From Chlorobaculum limnaeum (GTDB lineage Bacteria; Bacteroidota; Chlorobiia; Chlorobiales; Chlorobiaceae): DNA of 64,000 nucleotides. Position 1 is the stretch's first letter, and each line of letters opens with the position of its first letter. The stretch lies in the NCBI RefSeq assembly GCF_001747405.1, contig NZ_CP017305.1, forward strand, positions 886,001 to 950,000, in the 5' to 3' direction. Below are positions 2,626-8,791 of this stretch, one piece after another. A program made the translations under genes and the position numbers. Below the pieces are notes generated by a model, which was given only the letters and a program-made list of their open reading frames with translations, ran no database searches and had not been told where the DNA came from.

Positions 2626-3687
2626 ATGAAGATTAATGATATCAAAGCCTTTCTCGGGCGCTATTTCGATCCGGTCGAGCTGGTCGGCGCGGATGACATC
2701 GAGATTACGGGACCAGCAAAGATCGAGGAGGCCGTAGCTGGCCAGGTCAGCTTCGTGGCCAATGAGAAGTATTACCGTCACATCGCCCGGACTGGCGCTT
2801 CGCTGATTGTCGTCGGCCAGAAGGCTCCGCTAGACGAGGCTCCTGCCGGAACCAGTTTTCTGAAGGTCGCCGATCCCTACACGGCCTTCGTCTTCATCCT
2901 CCAGCACTTTTCGGGCAAGCGCCGCATCGCGGCTCCCGGTATCGCCGCATCGGCATCTATTGCTGCATCGGCCCGTCTCGGCGAGAATGTCTCGATTGGC
3001 GAACACGTTGTCATCGGCGAGAACTGCGTCATCGGCAACGGCACGGTGATCGGTCCCAGCACAGTGCTCATGGATGGTGTGACCGTCGGCTCGGAATGCA
3101 CGCTCTATCCGCTCGTGACGATTTACGATGGCACGGTGATCGGCGACCGCGTCACGATTCACAGCGGCACGGTGATTGGCGCGGATGGCTTCGGCTTCGC
3201 GCCGCAGAAGGATGGCTCCTACATCAAGATTCCGCAAATGGGTACGGTCGAGATCGGCGACGATGTCGAGATCGGCGCGAACACCACCATCGACCGCGCG
3301 ACGATGGGCGCGACGGTGATCGAGAAGGGGGCCAAGATCGACAACCTCGTGCAGATCGCTCACAACTGCCGGATAGGCGGTGACACGGTCATCGCCTCGC
3401 AGACCGGAATATCGGGCAGCGTGAAGATCGGCCGCCAGTGCCTTATCGGCGGGCAGGCGGGGTTCGCGGGCCATCTCGAACTCGCCGATCGCACCTCGGT
3501 GGCGGCCAAAGCGGGGATTTCGAAATCCTTCATGGAACCGGGGCAGGCCATTCGCGGCGTACCCGCCCAGCCGATGCGCGACCAGCTCCGCCAGGAGGCG
3601 CAGGTGCGCGGACTTGGGGAGATGAAGTCGAAGCTCGATGCGCTGGAGAAGCAGTTGCGGGAGCTTCAGCAGGGTCTCGACGGGTAA
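2626..3687 (+). CDS. lpxD: UDP-3-O-acylglucosamine N-acyltransferase
   Basis: LpxD adds the second acyl chain, as an N-linked 3-hydroxyacyl group, in lipid A synthesis. The 353-residue product has the N-terminal uridine-binding domain (about 1-105). A left-handed parallel beta helix made of hexapeptide repeats ([20 protein letters not shown] and many more, about 110-310) follows, then a C-terminal helix. The catalytic His lies in [12 protein letters not shown] near residue 246. Length matches the family. It shows that this organism makes lipid A and has an LPS-type outer membrane. Confidence 0.95.
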
Positions 3688-3802
3688 TTGCGCCGCTTCC
3701 AGCTCAGCCTGCCGTGTTGTTTCTGTTCCGGTCGCAGGGCACAGAGCGCAGGCTGATATCTTGACGCATGGCGAACTGCGCCCCTTTCGGAGAAATTCGC
3801 TT

Positions 3803-5911
3803 TCAGGCGGGCTGGCTGATCTTGAGCATTGCCGTTACTTTTTGGAGGAACGGCTTGAGCTTGAGCGGCTTGATGAGGCTGTCGTTGATACCGCTCTCTT
3901 TGGCCTGTTTCATGGTTGCGTTGTCGAGGTTGCCGCTCATGCCGAGTATCGGTATATCGTGCCATGAAGAGGCGGTCGAGCGAATACGCCTCGCCGTTTC
4001 GAAGCCGTCGAGCACCGGCATTCTCATATCGATGATCAGCAGGTCGCAATGCTGCGATTTCAGTAGTTCCAGCGCTTCAAAGCCGTTCGAGGCTTCGAGG
4101 ATCGTGATGCCCAGCTTGTTGAGCATCAGTTTGATGACCCTGCGGTTGAAATCGAGATCGTCGGCCACCAGCACGGTCTTGCCCGAAAGCGACTCCTTGA
4201 GCGTTTCCCGAACCATCTCCATCGAGCTTTTCAGGGTGCCAAGCAGCTCGGGCAGCGCCGGAGGCATCAAGATCAGGGCATCGATGCCCTTCTGGGTTTC
4301 GATAGCCGGATTGGTCGAGGAGCTGCTCGCGACAACGGGAATATCCCGGCCACTGTTCTTGAGGTCGTTGGCCAGCTTTACTGCCCCATCTGGCGGCAGA
4401 CTGACATTGGCGAGCACAAGGTCATAGCGATTCGCTTCGATCATCTCAAGGGCTTTGTCGCTGTCATCGGCGTCATCCAGCCCGACTTTGAGCGGAGCGA
4501 GCTGGCGGCGAAGGAGCGGGGCGTATACTTCGGGAATTCCAGCCAAGAGCATTTTTTTTCCTGCAAAAAAGGGCGCGTATTCCTCATAAAGGTTCGATTC
4601 GTACCTGTTGATGGCGGTCTGTTCGAGCACCGGGAATTCCAGTGCGAATTCGGTGAACCTGCCCTCTTCGGAATTGCAGTTAATCTGCGCCTTGAAGGAT
4701 TGCATCACACGGCGGCAGAAAGCCAGACCAAGTCCGGTACCGCCTTTCTTTCCCGAAGTGAAGAATGGGTCGAAGATTTTGGGAAGGATGTCCGGAGGGA
4801 TGCCTGGTCCATTATCACGGATGAGAATCCTGTTGCACGATTCGCCACGCTCGATGGTGATATCGATACGGCCGTCAGGGACGGAGTGAAGAATCTGCAA
4901 GGCGTTGACCATCAGATTGTAAATAACCAGAATGTAGCTGTTCTCCTCGCCAAGGAACAGGAAATCTTCTCCCGGTTTGAGATGGATCATTTGCCGTTCC
5001 TGTTCCGAAGCGTAGCCATACTCTTCCAGCGCTTTGCGGGTGACAGTCATTGCCGACAGACAGGCAAGCTCTTCATTCGTGACGTCAGTACTTCTGAAAT
5101 TGCCCAGTGTCATGGTTATAACATGGAGGCCGCGATTGACAGCCATCTGGGCCTGGTTCAGGCGCTTGGTCATGATTTCGATAGTGGAGGCGGGAGCTGC
5201 GGCGATACTTTGCTCATCGTTGATATGCGGTAATGCGTGCAGAACTTCGTCGATATTGTGACGTATCTGAGAAAGCGGGTTACGCATTTCGTGAGCAATA
5301 CTGCCAGCAAGGGCTTCGAGGGCGCGATATTTTTCTTCGGCTTTTTCTCTTTCCAGTTCTTTAAGACTTTTCCAGTTACTCAAACTGAAAATGTAGCCAG
5401 CAAAAATGGAGAAGGCCATAACGAGACTGTAAACCGGTATGTTAAATTCCGGGTCTAATGGCACATTTGGGATTGATAACGAGTAAAAAATTACGGCGCC
5501 AACAACTCCAAGAATCAAGTCGATGGTAAATATCAACCAGTTCGGTACGAACATCATCAAAATGAAAACCATGGCAATTTCCGAGTACAGCCACAGTTCA
5601 TTAAAATTGTTCATGAACAGGTTTACAGTGAAGATAAAGGGAAGAGAGAGTATTAGTGTAAAGCGCCAGTAATATGATACGTAGGGTTGAAACGACGATG
5701 GAAAGCGATGTATAAAAATCAGACTGATACATAAACATGTGGCGATAAGTCGAAGCCAGATATTATCATAAGGCAGATGAAAACCATATACATAAACGAA
5801 GTAAAATAAAAAATGAGCAGAAGCTCCAAGCAAGCCGACTACCATGGCATTGTAGTGGGAGGCCAGAGTTCCTTCCTTGAGGTATTGTTTTAGATGGATG
5901 GGCTCCTTCAA
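3803..5911 (-). CDS. cqsS: CqsS-like hybrid sensor histidine kinase (CAI-1-type receptor)
   Basis: This 702-residue hybrid kinase matches Vibrio cholerae CqsS in length and domain order. About six membrane helices span residues 20-180. A HisKA domain has GSIAHEMRNPLS with the phospho-acceptor His207. A HATPase domain has DNGPGIPPDIL, then GGTGLGLAFCRRVM and GRFTEFALEFP, close to the CqsS equivalents. A degenerate receiver (about 450-565) has Asn at the position of the phospho-Asp. An intact C-terminal receiver (about 578-700) has Asp628 in LLIIDMRMP. CqsS senses alpha-hydroxyketone/aminoketone CAI-1 signals and in Vibrio passes phosphate to LuxU and LuxO. Neither partner is visible here, so the output is unknown. 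The gene is divergent from cqsA, which makes a ligand-receptor pair the simplest reading. Confidence 0.85.
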   Translation of the reverse strand: MKEPIHLKQYLKEGTLASHYNAMVVGLLGASAHFLFYFVYVYGFHLPYDNIWLRLIATCLCISLIFIHRFPSSFQPYVSYYWRFTLILSLPFIFTVNLFMNNFNELWLYSEIAMVFILMMFVPNWLIFTIDLILGVVGAVIFYSLSIPNVPLDPEFNIPVYSLVMAFSIFAGYIFSLSNWKSLKELEREKAEEKYRALEALAGSIAHEMRNPLSQIRHNIDEVLHALPHINDEQSIAAAPASTIEIMTKRLNQAQMAVNRGLHVITMTLGNFRSTDVTNEELACLSAMTVTRKALEEYGYASEQERQMIHLKPGEDFLFLGEENSYILVIYNLMVNALQILHSVPDGRIDITIERGESCNRILIRDNGPGIPPDILPKIFDPFFTSGKKGGTGLGLAFCRRVMQSFKAQINCNSEEGRFTEFALEFPVLEQTAINRYESNLYEEYAPFFAGKKMLLAGIPEVYAPLLRRQLAPLKVGLDDADDSDKALEMIEANRYDLVLANVSLPPDGAVKLANDLKNSGRDIPVVASSSSTNPAIETQKGIDALILMPPALPELLGTLKSSMEMVRETLKESLSGKTVLVADDLDFNRRVIKLMLNKLGITILEASNGFEALELLKSQHCDLLIIDMRMPVLDGFETARRIRSTASSWHDIPILGMSGNLDNATMKQAKESGINDSLIKPLKLKPFLQKVTAMLKISQPA

Positions 5912-6656
5912 GATAAATCTCCAATTTCTTTTTCAACTTACTCTACAGTTGCTCTGAAAAAAGCCTTCGGTTGATGTTCCGATGTGACAGTCTTCTGTAA
6001 TCCTGAGTGATAGAATACTTCAATATGCTTCTCTATGCATTCGAGTGGCGCATGAAGATTTGCGGGTTATACGCATATGTGTTTTGAAAAATATCAGTAT
6101 ACGATGGCCTGTTTAGAGTGAATTCTTATGTTTAAAATAAGGAGCGGTAAGCATTTCGCCAAGTTCCAATCACCTTTTCAGGAGGTGATCCGTATTTGTG
6201 TTTTTCAAGAATTCGATTGTGGCGTAAATTTAGTGAAATAGAGACTGTGCTCGAGACGGTTGACGACCTCTGTGTCCGTATTTCTTGATGTTTAGTTCCT
6301 GAAAAAACAATGGATGGATTTTTTTAGAAAGAGAACTTATCAGTATTTTAAAGTTGCTATTTTTGCCGGCGAAAAACTGATCTGGCGGAGTAAAACGGCT
6401 GTGATTCCTGGATTTCATTATGGCCCAATCAATGTTGATTGATTACAGACATGGCCGAAATAACGCTAACGGTAGCTTAGGATTTCTGGAAATGTTGAGT
6501 AGAAGTAATCTGTGCGAAATGACTTTTAATCGTTGTTTATTAAAGTTGTTCTGGTTTTGACCAGAATTTGGAATGATTCCAGTTTAATGGTGCAATGCGA
6601 GTACGTTATTTTTTGCATAGTAATATAAGAGCGGATAAGTTATAAAAAATAAACAT
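5912..6656. promoter_or_regulatory. Divergent regulatory region between cqsS and cqsA
   Basis: This 745-base AT-rich stretch separates the two divergent starts and I see no convincing gene in it. It contains three short perfect dyads near cqsA: AATCAA-TG-TTGATT (6427-6440), TTCTGGT-TTTG-ACCAGAA (6549-6566) and TGGAAT-G-ATTCCA (6569-6581). An AGGAGGTGATC string at 6180-6190 resembles a strong ribosome binding site, but no plausible reading frame follows it. The length and dyads suggest regulated divergent promoters or a small RNA, which cannot be settled by reading alone. Confidence 0.5.
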
Positions 6657-7886
6657 ATGATTACCGAATATTTTCAAGGGGTGATAAACTCCACCGATTT
6701 TCCCGATTTTATTGAGAAAAAACTTCGTCAGTGTGATGACGAAATGTTTAGTCCCAGAAAAAACAAAAAACCACTTGTTCTTGGCAATCGGCTGCCAGAT
6801 GCTGGTTCAATCATGTTACAAAGTAACGATTATCTGAACATCTCGAATCATCCCCGCATTCGAAAAGCACAGCTTGAAATGCTCACTGCCATGAACCGGG
6901 AGCCTCTCATGTCGGCGGTGTTTTTGCATGAAGACAGTGCAATGAATCAGTTTGAGAAAAGAATGGCTTTTTTCACAGGTTTCGAAAGCAGCATTCTCTG
7001 TCAGTCAGGCTGGGCGGCCAATGTCGGTCTTTTGCAGGTGATTGCCGACAGCTCGGTGCCCGTCTATATCGATTTTTTTGCCCATATGTCGCTGTGGGAC
7101 GGGATCAAAATTGCCGGTGCGACTTCATACGCATTCCGTCATAATGATGCCGCTCACCTCGAGCGCCTCATCACCGAGCATGGCCAGGGCATTGTGGCTA
7201 TCGATGCGCTCTACAGCACCTCTGGTGAAATCGCTCCTCTCAAGGATATTATTGAAGTGGCTAATCGACATGGATGCGTATCGGTTGTCGATGAATCCCA
7301 TTCTCTCGGCACCTATGGCACGCAGGGGGCGGGTCTGGTTAATGAATACGGGTTGACCGATCAGGTGCATTTCATTACGGCGAGCCTCGCCAAGGCGTTT
7401 GCTGGACGGGCGGGCATCATTTTGTGTCCATCGAGACTGGCAAAGTATTACCCATTCATGGCGTCCCCATCGATTTTCAGCAGTACGCTGCTCGACTACG
7501 AAATATCTGGATTGAACGCCACGCTCGATGTTATCATGGAGGAGGACGAGCGGCGAGCAGCGCTTCGTGAAAAATCAGAATATTTCAGACGTGGTCTTTC
7601 CTCGCTGGGATACTCTGTAGCCAGTCAATCCCAGATCGTCTCTATTCTGAGCGGTCTTGAACCCGATACCGAACAGCTTCGTGACGCGCTTGAAGCGAGG
7701 AATGTTTTCGGTTCAGCCTTCATGGCTCCGGCAACTCCGAAAACCCGATCCCTCATGCGTTTTTCGATTCACAGCGGTCTCACGATGGAGGAGCTTGATT
7801 ATGTTCTGAATGTTTGCGCGGATATTCGTGATGAAATCGGTATGTGGAACTGGAAATCGACGAAAACAAATCGGGTAAACCGTTGA
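6657..7886 (+). CDS. cqsA: CqsA-like CAI-1 autoinducer synthase (PLP-dependent acyl-CoA transferase)
   Basis: The 409-residue product belongs to the alpha-oxoamine synthase fold (like KBL and BioF) and aligns over its full length with Vibrio CqsA. Shared stretches include [33 protein letters not shown], the run from [36 protein letters not shown] and the PLP-lysine motif [13 protein letters not shown] (Lys246). [22 protein letters not shown] and the other CqsA-specific segments separate it from BioF and KBL. CqsA joins an acyl-CoA to a small amino donor to make the aminoketone precursor of the CAI-1 signal. It is divergent from the cognate sensor gene. The ATG start is preceded by an AT-rich leader without a strong Shine-Dalgarno. 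No biotin genes are nearby, which also argues against BioF. Confidence 0.88.
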
Positions 7887-8225
7887 TTCAACAGGCTCTT
7901 TCTGCTTGTGGCTTCTGTGCGCTGTTTGAAATCAGGAATGTCAATGGCTATCGTTCTTGTTCTTGGGCAAACACTTCATGGCTCGCAATTGACCTGATTT
8001 GCGGTGTAGCTGAATCACGAGATACTTTCGTTTGCGATTCAGACCATTGAAAAACAAAGAAAAAGCGGTGAATAAATACAGTGAAGACGGATTTTATTAG
8101 GTAATTGTTAACAATTGTTGATAATTGTGCCCGCTTTATTTTGCCGGCAATTGTTCAGCGCCGTAGCGAGAAATGTGGTGTTTGGCGAAACAGGTTTTTG
8201 CTCCGCCAAACCGTTCATTGGCGGG
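7887..8225. other. Intergenic region with AATTGTT repeats
   Basis: About 340 bases without a recognisable gene. It holds a palindrome AATTGTTAACAATT (8103-8116) followed by further AATTGT-type half sites to about 8128, and an inverted repeat TTTGGCG (8181-8187)/CGCCAAA (8204-8210). A short open frame continuing past the cqsA end (to 8050) resembles nothing I know. Confidence 0.4.
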
Positions 8226-8618
8226 TCATGACAGGTTTCTCGGAACCTGCGACGAGTGGTGGTGGATGATCGGGCGCTCATGCTCCAGATTGACGGCGAA
8301 GGTGAATCTGGATGGAAAGGTCAACAGAAGCTGATCGACCTCGAACTCGAAGGCGTAGATGCCGCCGAGTATCCAGGCGTTTCCGCCGAGAGACTGTTTC
8401 TTGAGCGATTTTTCATAGAGCCGCACCCGGAGGTTGTCTCTGGTGGCGAGCTGTTCGAAGTAGTTGCGGATGCCTTCCGGAGTGCTGACGGTATGAGGCG
8501 AAAAGGTCGGAATGAGCACCGCCTGTTCATGATAGAGCTGTTCGACTTTTTCGATCTCCCCGGTGCAGATTCCGGATATCCAGTTTGAAAGAACCTCTTC
8601 AGCGTTTTGGTAATGCAT
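8226..8618 (-). CDS. SnoaL/NTF2-like (SgcJ/EcaC-type) protein
   Basis: The likely start is the ATG at 8616-8618, giving 130 residues beginning MHYQNAEEVLSNW. The frame is open further upstream, but that part reads like non-coding sequence and runs through the terminator hairpin at 8697-8741. Features fit the NTF2-like fold: an N-terminal helix pair, IEKVEQLYHEQAVLIPTFS, TPEGIRNYFEQL and then long beta strands ending in PIIHHHSSQVP. SgcJ/EcaC-like members of this superfamily have diverse or unknown functions. No substrate can be assigned. It stands alone between cqsA and an OmpA lipoprotein gene on the same strand as the latter but separated from it by a terminator. Confidence 0.75.
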   Translation of the reverse strand: MHYQNAEEVLSNWISGICTGEIEKVEQLYHEQAVLIPTFSPHTVSTPEGIRNYFEQLATRDNLRVRLYEKSLKKQSLGGNAWILGGIYAFEFEVDQLLLTFPSRFTFAVNLEHERPIIHHHSSQVPRNLS

Positions 8619-8686
8619 GGCGTTTTGCTCGCTTGTGGTCGATACTCCTGATGGCATGATCGCTCGGCAATGCGTTGGCGATCCCG

Positions 8687-8741
8687 GAAAAATCATGCCC
8701 GTCCGGCGTCGGCCAAAACTGGCTGACAGAACCGGACGGGC
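8687..8741 (-). terminator. Rho-independent terminator after the OmpA-like gene
   Basis: A perfect 10-bp outer stem GCCCGTCCGG (8697-8706)/CCGGACGGGC (8732-8741) is extended inward by a near-perfect GTCGGCC/GGCTGAC pairing. On the minus strand it is followed by ATGATTTTT. It lies about 50 bases past the stop of the gene at 8792. Confidence 0.8.
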
Positions 8742-8791
8742 AAAGATAAGCATTTTTTCTTTCCGATACATGCGGCCGGATGACCGATGTC

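Follow-up and report, generated by a model that had tools for sequence, protein, structure and literature searches.

The question raised by this locus is how a gene for a CAI-1-type autoinducer synthase came to lie beside a sensor kinase whose relatives adjoin other enzymes. The locus consists of cqsA and a divergently transcribed gene for a CqsS-type hybrid sensor kinase, and lies in a stretch of 64,000 nucleotides of the genome of the green sulfur bacterium Chlorobaculum limnaeum (contig NZ_CP017305.1, positions 886,001 to 950,000), hereafter called the window. A preliminary description presented the two genes as a complete CqsA-CqsS pair that matches the Vibrio proteins over their full length. 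The divergent pair was confirmed (Table 1), and the match holds for the synthase (around 44 to 54% identity to Vibrionaceae CqsA), but is weaker for the sensor (only around 25 to 29% to Vibrionaceae CqsS). The locus quite probably represents a signalling pair that was formed by replacement of the synthase beside a resident sensor, which appears to have been retuned. The bare presence of cqsA and cqsS in green sulfur bacteria is already published and not new: according to PMC10158934, the CAI-1 system is the only one found in their genomes and both genes are always adjacent there, and PMC5289986 cites Tiaden et al. 2010 for homologs of the system in Chlorobium and Prosthecochloris.

The synthase gene can be classified as a true cqsA by sequence criteria. 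Its product reaches 595.3 bits with the CqsA equivalog NF005526 of NCBIfam (curated cut-off 428), stays under the cut-offs for BioF and KBL and has Vibrio CqsA (3hqt) as its top PDB match (2.6e-112). It carries the previously described lysine motif for pyridoxal phosphate (PLP), with Lys246 in TASLAK, and Asp212 within DESHS. In a tree rooted with the two paralogs of the same genome, which have very long branches, and in which Legionella LqsA is not included by name, it branches inside the green-sulfur CqsA clade, apart from the BioF/KBL-type paralogs. Other green-sulfur CqsAs are 60 to 75% identical to it, and the closest named record is that of C. thiosulfatiphilum (87%). It groups with the CqsA of L034, although the sensor next to that cqsA gene is of the other, HPt-fused type.

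The sensor is composed of a 6-helix-type membrane domain, a DHp/HATPase module, a degenerate central receiver (27.6 bits, cut-off 30.2) and an intact C-terminal receiver; an HPt domain was not found in it. This architecture, together with His207 and Asp628, agrees with what had been described. Profile comparison by hhalign identifies its membrane domain as homologous to that of CqsS (98.7% with the green-sulfur, 98.8% with the Rickettsiales and 99.1% with the Vibrionaceae profile), while reversed and column-shuffled controls gave 0.1 to 2.3%. An AlphaFold (AF2) model of this domain had a pLDDT of 46.7 and was not used. A search with the membrane-domain profile found no other CqsS-type sensor in the genome.

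The sensor is not simply a CqsS, however, as had been assumed. For phylogenetic analysis, 130 of 188 sensor open reading frames (ORFs) were selected, leaving out duplicates of one contig, most Vibrionaceae and fragments below 440 amino acids, and 129 of them entered the tree. The window sensor falls within a group of sensors that adjoin enzymes other than CqsA, and its nearest relatives stand beside genes for an AfsA-like protein and a flavin adenine dinucleotide (FAD) oxidoreductase. Approximately unbiased (AU) tests, performed on 38 of the 130 rows with columns 110 and 113 omitted, rejected the union of the window sensor and its three counterparts in other genomes (the window clade) with the HPt-fused CqsA-linked green-sulfur sensors (p = 1e-5) and with Vibrionaceae CqsS (p = 8e-43). 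The trees place it in another receptor clade than the CqsA-linked CqsS. The membrane domain shares a mean identity of around 24% with those of CqsA-linked green-sulfur sensors. Compared to the AfsA-linked siblings, the window clade is 61% identical in the membrane domain and 68.5% in the kinase; pairs of siblings show the opposite (72.7% and 65.7%).

The sibling species suggest what the sensor was associated with before. In Chlorobaculum genomes without cqsA, the same locus holds an operon of genes for a PF03756 AfsA-domain (hotdog) protein, a flavin amine-oxidase-like FAD oxidoreductase and the sensor, which often overlap by 4 bases. In G004, G009 and G016, a class I S-adenosylmethionine (SAM) methyltransferase gene takes the place of the AfsA and FAD genes; judging by a motif, the enzyme may be PhcB-like. 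On plasmids, it matched distant methyltransferases only, and the AfsA protein had no match. The gene order rplY-prs-lpxD-locus-CaMKII_AD-ompA is preserved throughout the genus; the gene names are presumed, save where Pfam supplied them. The AfsA gene is present in 27 of 98 Chlorobiia genomes (28 genes), but in none of the four genomes of the window clade; 27 of the 28 genes adjoin a sensor of class A (see below for the classes), and in the remaining case (G071), the AfsA gene and the sensor fragment are on separate contigs.

The older gene pair appears to have been displaced by cqsA, since the gap of 745 bases between the sensor gene and cqsA contains the decayed 3' part of the FAD gene, which is direct evidence for this event. 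This relic directly adjoins the start of the sensor gene and spans approximately residues 216 to 437 of the FAD proteins. Nine of 27 sibling FAD proteins match the window at E<=1e-3 at around 5911-6585 on the minus strand (best 3e-13, L180), and nucleotide similarity to FAD genes reaches 66% over 278 bases. An FAD profile scored 3.6e-9 on the relic, whereas the best of 200 shuffles reached 0.063. Weaker FAD remnants are present in L031 (8e-5) and L032 (0.01).

The residues of the receptor domain point in the same direction. According to the review PMC3376566, head-group specificity of V. cholerae CqsS is set by W104 and S107; these positions were numbered here via V. mimicus as a stand-in. The equivalent pair, Trp107 and Ser110, is present in all four window-clade sensors. 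Column 110 is serine in these four and in all 48 other CqsA-linked sensors (25 green-sulfur, 5 Rickettsiales and 18 Vibrionaceae), but tryptophan in all 32 relatives adjoining AfsA or SAM methyltransferase, and the window sensor therefore looks retuned at the head-group site of CqsS. The set of 32 excludes enzyme-less A2, class B, class D and tandem second sensors, and two of the 130 rows (L202, L235) were ungrouped in the count. A2 sensors without enzyme have tryptophan (6/7) or a gap (1/7), and class B sensors beside LCM have cysteine (6/12) or alanine (6/12). The codons for Trp110 (TGG) and Ser110 (TCG) are one base apart. In a scan of 695 columns, the positions at which the window clade had come to resemble the CqsA-linked sensors most strongly were 110 (4.25) and 113 (3.17), whereas a control clade reached a maximum of 2.36. 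In a separate sample of Gammaproteobacteria, in which 18 of 369 genomes had such sensors, serine was found in 5/5 sensors with CqsA nearby and in 4/15 without (Fisher p = 0.008, not corrected for kinship). Phe175 at the position of C170 hints at a signal with a shorter (C8-like) tail.

From these data, the following course of events is proposed. As judged from the siblings, the region flanked by lpxD and the CaMKII_AD-like gene would ancestrally have carried, in Chlorobaculum, an operon of an afsA-like gene, the FAD oxidoreductase gene and the CqsS-type sensor gene. In the line that gave rise to the window and three related genomes, this arrangement would have been altered by a cqsA gene most closely related to other green-sulfur cqsA genes. 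Oriented divergently, it would have supplanted the afsA-like gene together with the initial half of the FAD gene, leaving the remainder to decay as the observed relic. Either after or shortly before this swap, Trp110 of the sensor changed to serine and Phe113 to a small residue, which would restore the CqsS head-group site. CqsA would then use acyl-CoA and SAM to synthesize an alpha-aminoketone or hydroxyketone, and the binding of this product to the membrane domain would determine whether the kinase phosphorylates or dephosphorylates Asp628. That this phototroph makes and senses its own aminoketone or hydroxyketone, as suggested earlier, is plausible because of the true CqsA, the CqsS-homologous membrane domain and the W104/S107 pair; the notion of an inherited CqsA-CqsS pair has to be given up.

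Several observations weigh against synthase replacement and retuning. Ser110 also occurs without an adjoining cqsA, namely in tandem second sensors (3/3), unlinked class C sensors (11/11) and some class D sensors (3/11), and is therefore no proof of pairing. Two of the three gatekeeper residues are unlike those of V. cholerae (M165, which is F in L033, F167 and A171 compared to F160, F162 and F166); CqsS gatekeeper positions vary, for instance in LqsS, according to PMC3376566. The window clade lies firmly among the AfsA-linked Chlorobaculum sensors, yet its exact sister is not firm. The relic of L033 is not significant at the protein level and consists of an 82-base nucleotide match (E 3e-6, in a small database). 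Finally, no relic of AfsA was found in the window (0/26 AfsA queries at E<=0.01), and the loss of AfsA itself is therefore deduced from the siblings only.

It is possible, if rather doubtful, that eavesdropping came first, and that a Ser110 sensor was already listening to aminoketones of neighboring cells when cqsA was captured. Ser110 has at least three origins, which lie in the tandem second sensors of the cqsA-less genomes G004, G006 and G011 and in the window clade, and the hypothesis that all Ser110 class A sensors (window clade and tandem sensors) form one membrane-domain clade was rejected (AU 2e-4). In the window clade, however, Ser110 is always accompanied by cqsA (4/4), and the order of both events can therefore not be read from the locus. 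The tandem second sensors with Ser110 in cqsA-less genomes (L182:8876-11092, L183:10496-12652, L187:1590-3752) may themselves be candidate listeners to foreign aminoketones; alternatively, serine may simply be common at this position.

Synthase and sensor could also be neighbors rather than partners, with cqsA as a passenger and a sensor that still detects an AfsA-type signal of other cells. The pairing of the sensor's relatives with AfsA and the low GC content of the gene block would fit this idea. It is nevertheless unlikely: residues 110 and 113 changed precisely at the head-group site, the sensor is the only one of its type found in the genome, and purifying selection acts on both genes, with dN/dS values of 0.085-0.117 for cqsA and, by domain, of 0.07-0.15 for the sensor (three species each). 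A simple CqsA-CqsS pair, co-inherited from a green-sulfur ancestor, is very improbable, since the adjacent and divergent genes, as in most other cqsA-bearing green sulfur bacteria, the placement of CqsA in the green-sulfur clade and the W104/S107 pair are outweighed by the rejected trees, the low identity of the membrane domains despite the similarity of the CqsAs, the lack of an HPt domain in the sensor and the FAD relic between the genes.

Table 1. Coordinates of the features of the locus within the window.
Feature	Position	Strand	Remarks
CqsS-type hybrid sensor kinase	3803..5911	-	702 aa, TTG start; member of the AfsA-linked receptor clade
Asp628, predicted receiver phospho-acceptor	4028..4030	-	aligned with V. 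mimicus D618
His207, predicted phospho-acceptor	5291..5293	-	aligned with V. mimicus H194
Membrane receptor domain, ~aa 1-185	5357..5911	-	homology to CqsS membrane domains (hhalign)
Ser110 (TCG)	5582..5584	-	aligned with V. cholerae CqsS S107; TGG (Trp) in AfsA-/methyltransferase-linked relatives
Trp107	5591..5593	-	aligned with V. cholerae CqsS W104
Decayed FAD oxidoreductase gene, ~C-terminal half	5911..6579	-	numerous stops; position and strand match those of the intact gene in siblings
cqsA, alpha-hydroxyketone/aminoketone-type autoinducer synthase (predicted)	6657..7886	+	409 aa, ATG start; NF005526, PDB, tree
Codon of PLP Lys246 of cqsA	7392-7394	+	within TASLAK
CaMKII_AD-like gene (Pfam PF08332)	8226-8771		conserved right edge of the variable locus, genus-wide

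The route by which the signal would leave the sensor seems to differ from that of Vibrio. The earlier observation that the window contains neither LuxU nor LuxO extends to the whole genome (a single contig of 2,797,276 bases), in which no HPt domain scored above the cut-off and none of five sigma54-activator matches coincided with a receiver match; a LuxU-LuxO route is therefore not supported, and the phosphoryl group would pass to a partner other than the known HPt/LuxO-type proteins. The best of the weak HPt candidates, at genome position 2,682,246, was rejected as spurious; it is antisense to a ribosomal-protein-like gene, presumably rpsG. Candidate outputs are an HPt protein that escaped recognition and an orphan receiver targeted by the kinase. 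An Rfam scan of positions 3600-8300 yielded nothing at E<=0.1.

The sensor belongs to a wider family. Using a profile of its kind of membrane domain, 116 CqsS-type sensor ORFs were tabulated from 46 of the 98 Chlorobiia genomes, including 14 Chlorobaculum genomes without cqsA, whereas CqsA above the cut-off was found in 30. In a sample of the phylum, 46 of 394 genomes had such sensors, all from two green-sulfur genera. Class A (n=52) comprises 27 sensors beside AfsA and FAD genes, 2 with only FAD in reach, 7 beside methyltransferase, 4 beside CqsA and 12 without enzyme, some of which are at contig ends. All 13 class B sensors adjoin a fusion of a hotdog-thioesterase-like domain and an LCM carboxyl methyltransferase (e.g., L222:2830-4290, L210:10818-12227), a candidate enzyme for a fatty-acid methyl ester signal. 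In classes C and D (n=49), 26 sensors are located beside CqsA and 23 have no such neighbor; two fragments are unclassed. CqsA-adjacent sensors are of two kinds, the HPt-fused ones of around 850 amino acids (fusion seen by Pfam in 2/2 tested and as a motif in most full-length ones) and the window kind of 702-756 amino acids, which is restricted to four genomes.

Domain exchange may have accompanied the methyltransferase. In G004, G009 and G016, the sensors beside the methyltransferase (L187:4134-6248, L205:6224-8716, L213:6466-8619) form one membrane-domain clade (100/100), which is rejected by their kinase domains (AU 7e-42), and because of this conflict the membrane domain seems to have been exchanged onto a resident kinase in at least one of them. 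Further variants were observed elsewhere. A few Chlorobaculum genomes contain divergent CqsS-type sensors as arrays and single copies, mostly with an HPt-like motif and without a neighboring synthase (L244, L248-L253). In metagenome-assembled genomes labelled Rickettsiales, Alphaproteobacteria or Proteobacteria (L044, L045, L047, L048, L049), a CqsS-type sensor gene lies downstream of cqsA in the same orientation; these CqsAs are 54-57% identical to that of the window, and contamination is possible. One such record is labelled Rickettsia typhi, which is probably a misnomer.

Compared to known systems, the locus resembles Vibrio CqsA/CqsS in its CqsA family enzyme, the homologous membrane domain with the W104/S107 equivalents, the phospho-accepting histidine and receiver aspartate and the adjacent genes, but differs in the clade of the sensor, two of three gatekeepers, the relic between the genes and the lack of a detectable LuxU or LuxO. 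With the systems of other green sulfur bacteria (PMC10158934), it shares the CqsA and the mostly divergent order, whereas their HPt-fused sensors form a separate clade. The Legionella system LqsA-LqsR-LqsS, whose second receptor LqsT is named in PMC10653808, likewise combines a CqsA family enzyme with a 6-helix kinase; however, the window pair has no response-regulator gene between or beside it, and its kinase is a hybrid. Butyrolactone systems of the AfsA/ScbA type are known from Streptomyces. The sibling loci also encode a PF03756 AfsA-domain protein, but this protein scores 36.7 on the NCBIfam ScbA/BarX model (cut-off 200), and its partner is a membrane kinase instead of a TetR-type receptor. 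In the literature searched, partly judged by title, CqsS-type sensors with AfsA or AfsA-type systems in Chlorobi or Chlorobaculum were not reported, and neither was a Gram-negative butyrolactone system of AfsA with a histidine kinase.

The locus bears on the question of how a signal and its receptor can change together without loss of communication. Sibling species present the states before and after at a single locus, and a specificity residue known from experiments correlates strongly with them, so that this co-change could be tested with few constructs. The findings also suggest that several acyl-derived signals are served by receptors of the CqsS type, and that G019, a sibling lacking cqsA, possesses an undescribed AfsA-family signalling operon. 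On balance, it appears somewhat likely that in green sulfur bacteria a single receptor fold, the CqsS membrane domain, is combined with candidate signal enzymes of four kinds (CqsA; the AfsA-like protein with the FAD oxidoreductase; the class I SAM methyltransferase; the fusion of hotdog-thioesterase-like domain and LCM carboxyl methyltransferase), each of which has a receptor subclass of its own, and that enzyme and receptor specificity are exchanged at a fixed locus; the window would be a case caught in the act, in which the remains of the former enzyme gene and the specificity change of the receptor are both visible. If this is true, the repertoire would include an AfsA-type signal that is sensed by a membrane histidine kinase.

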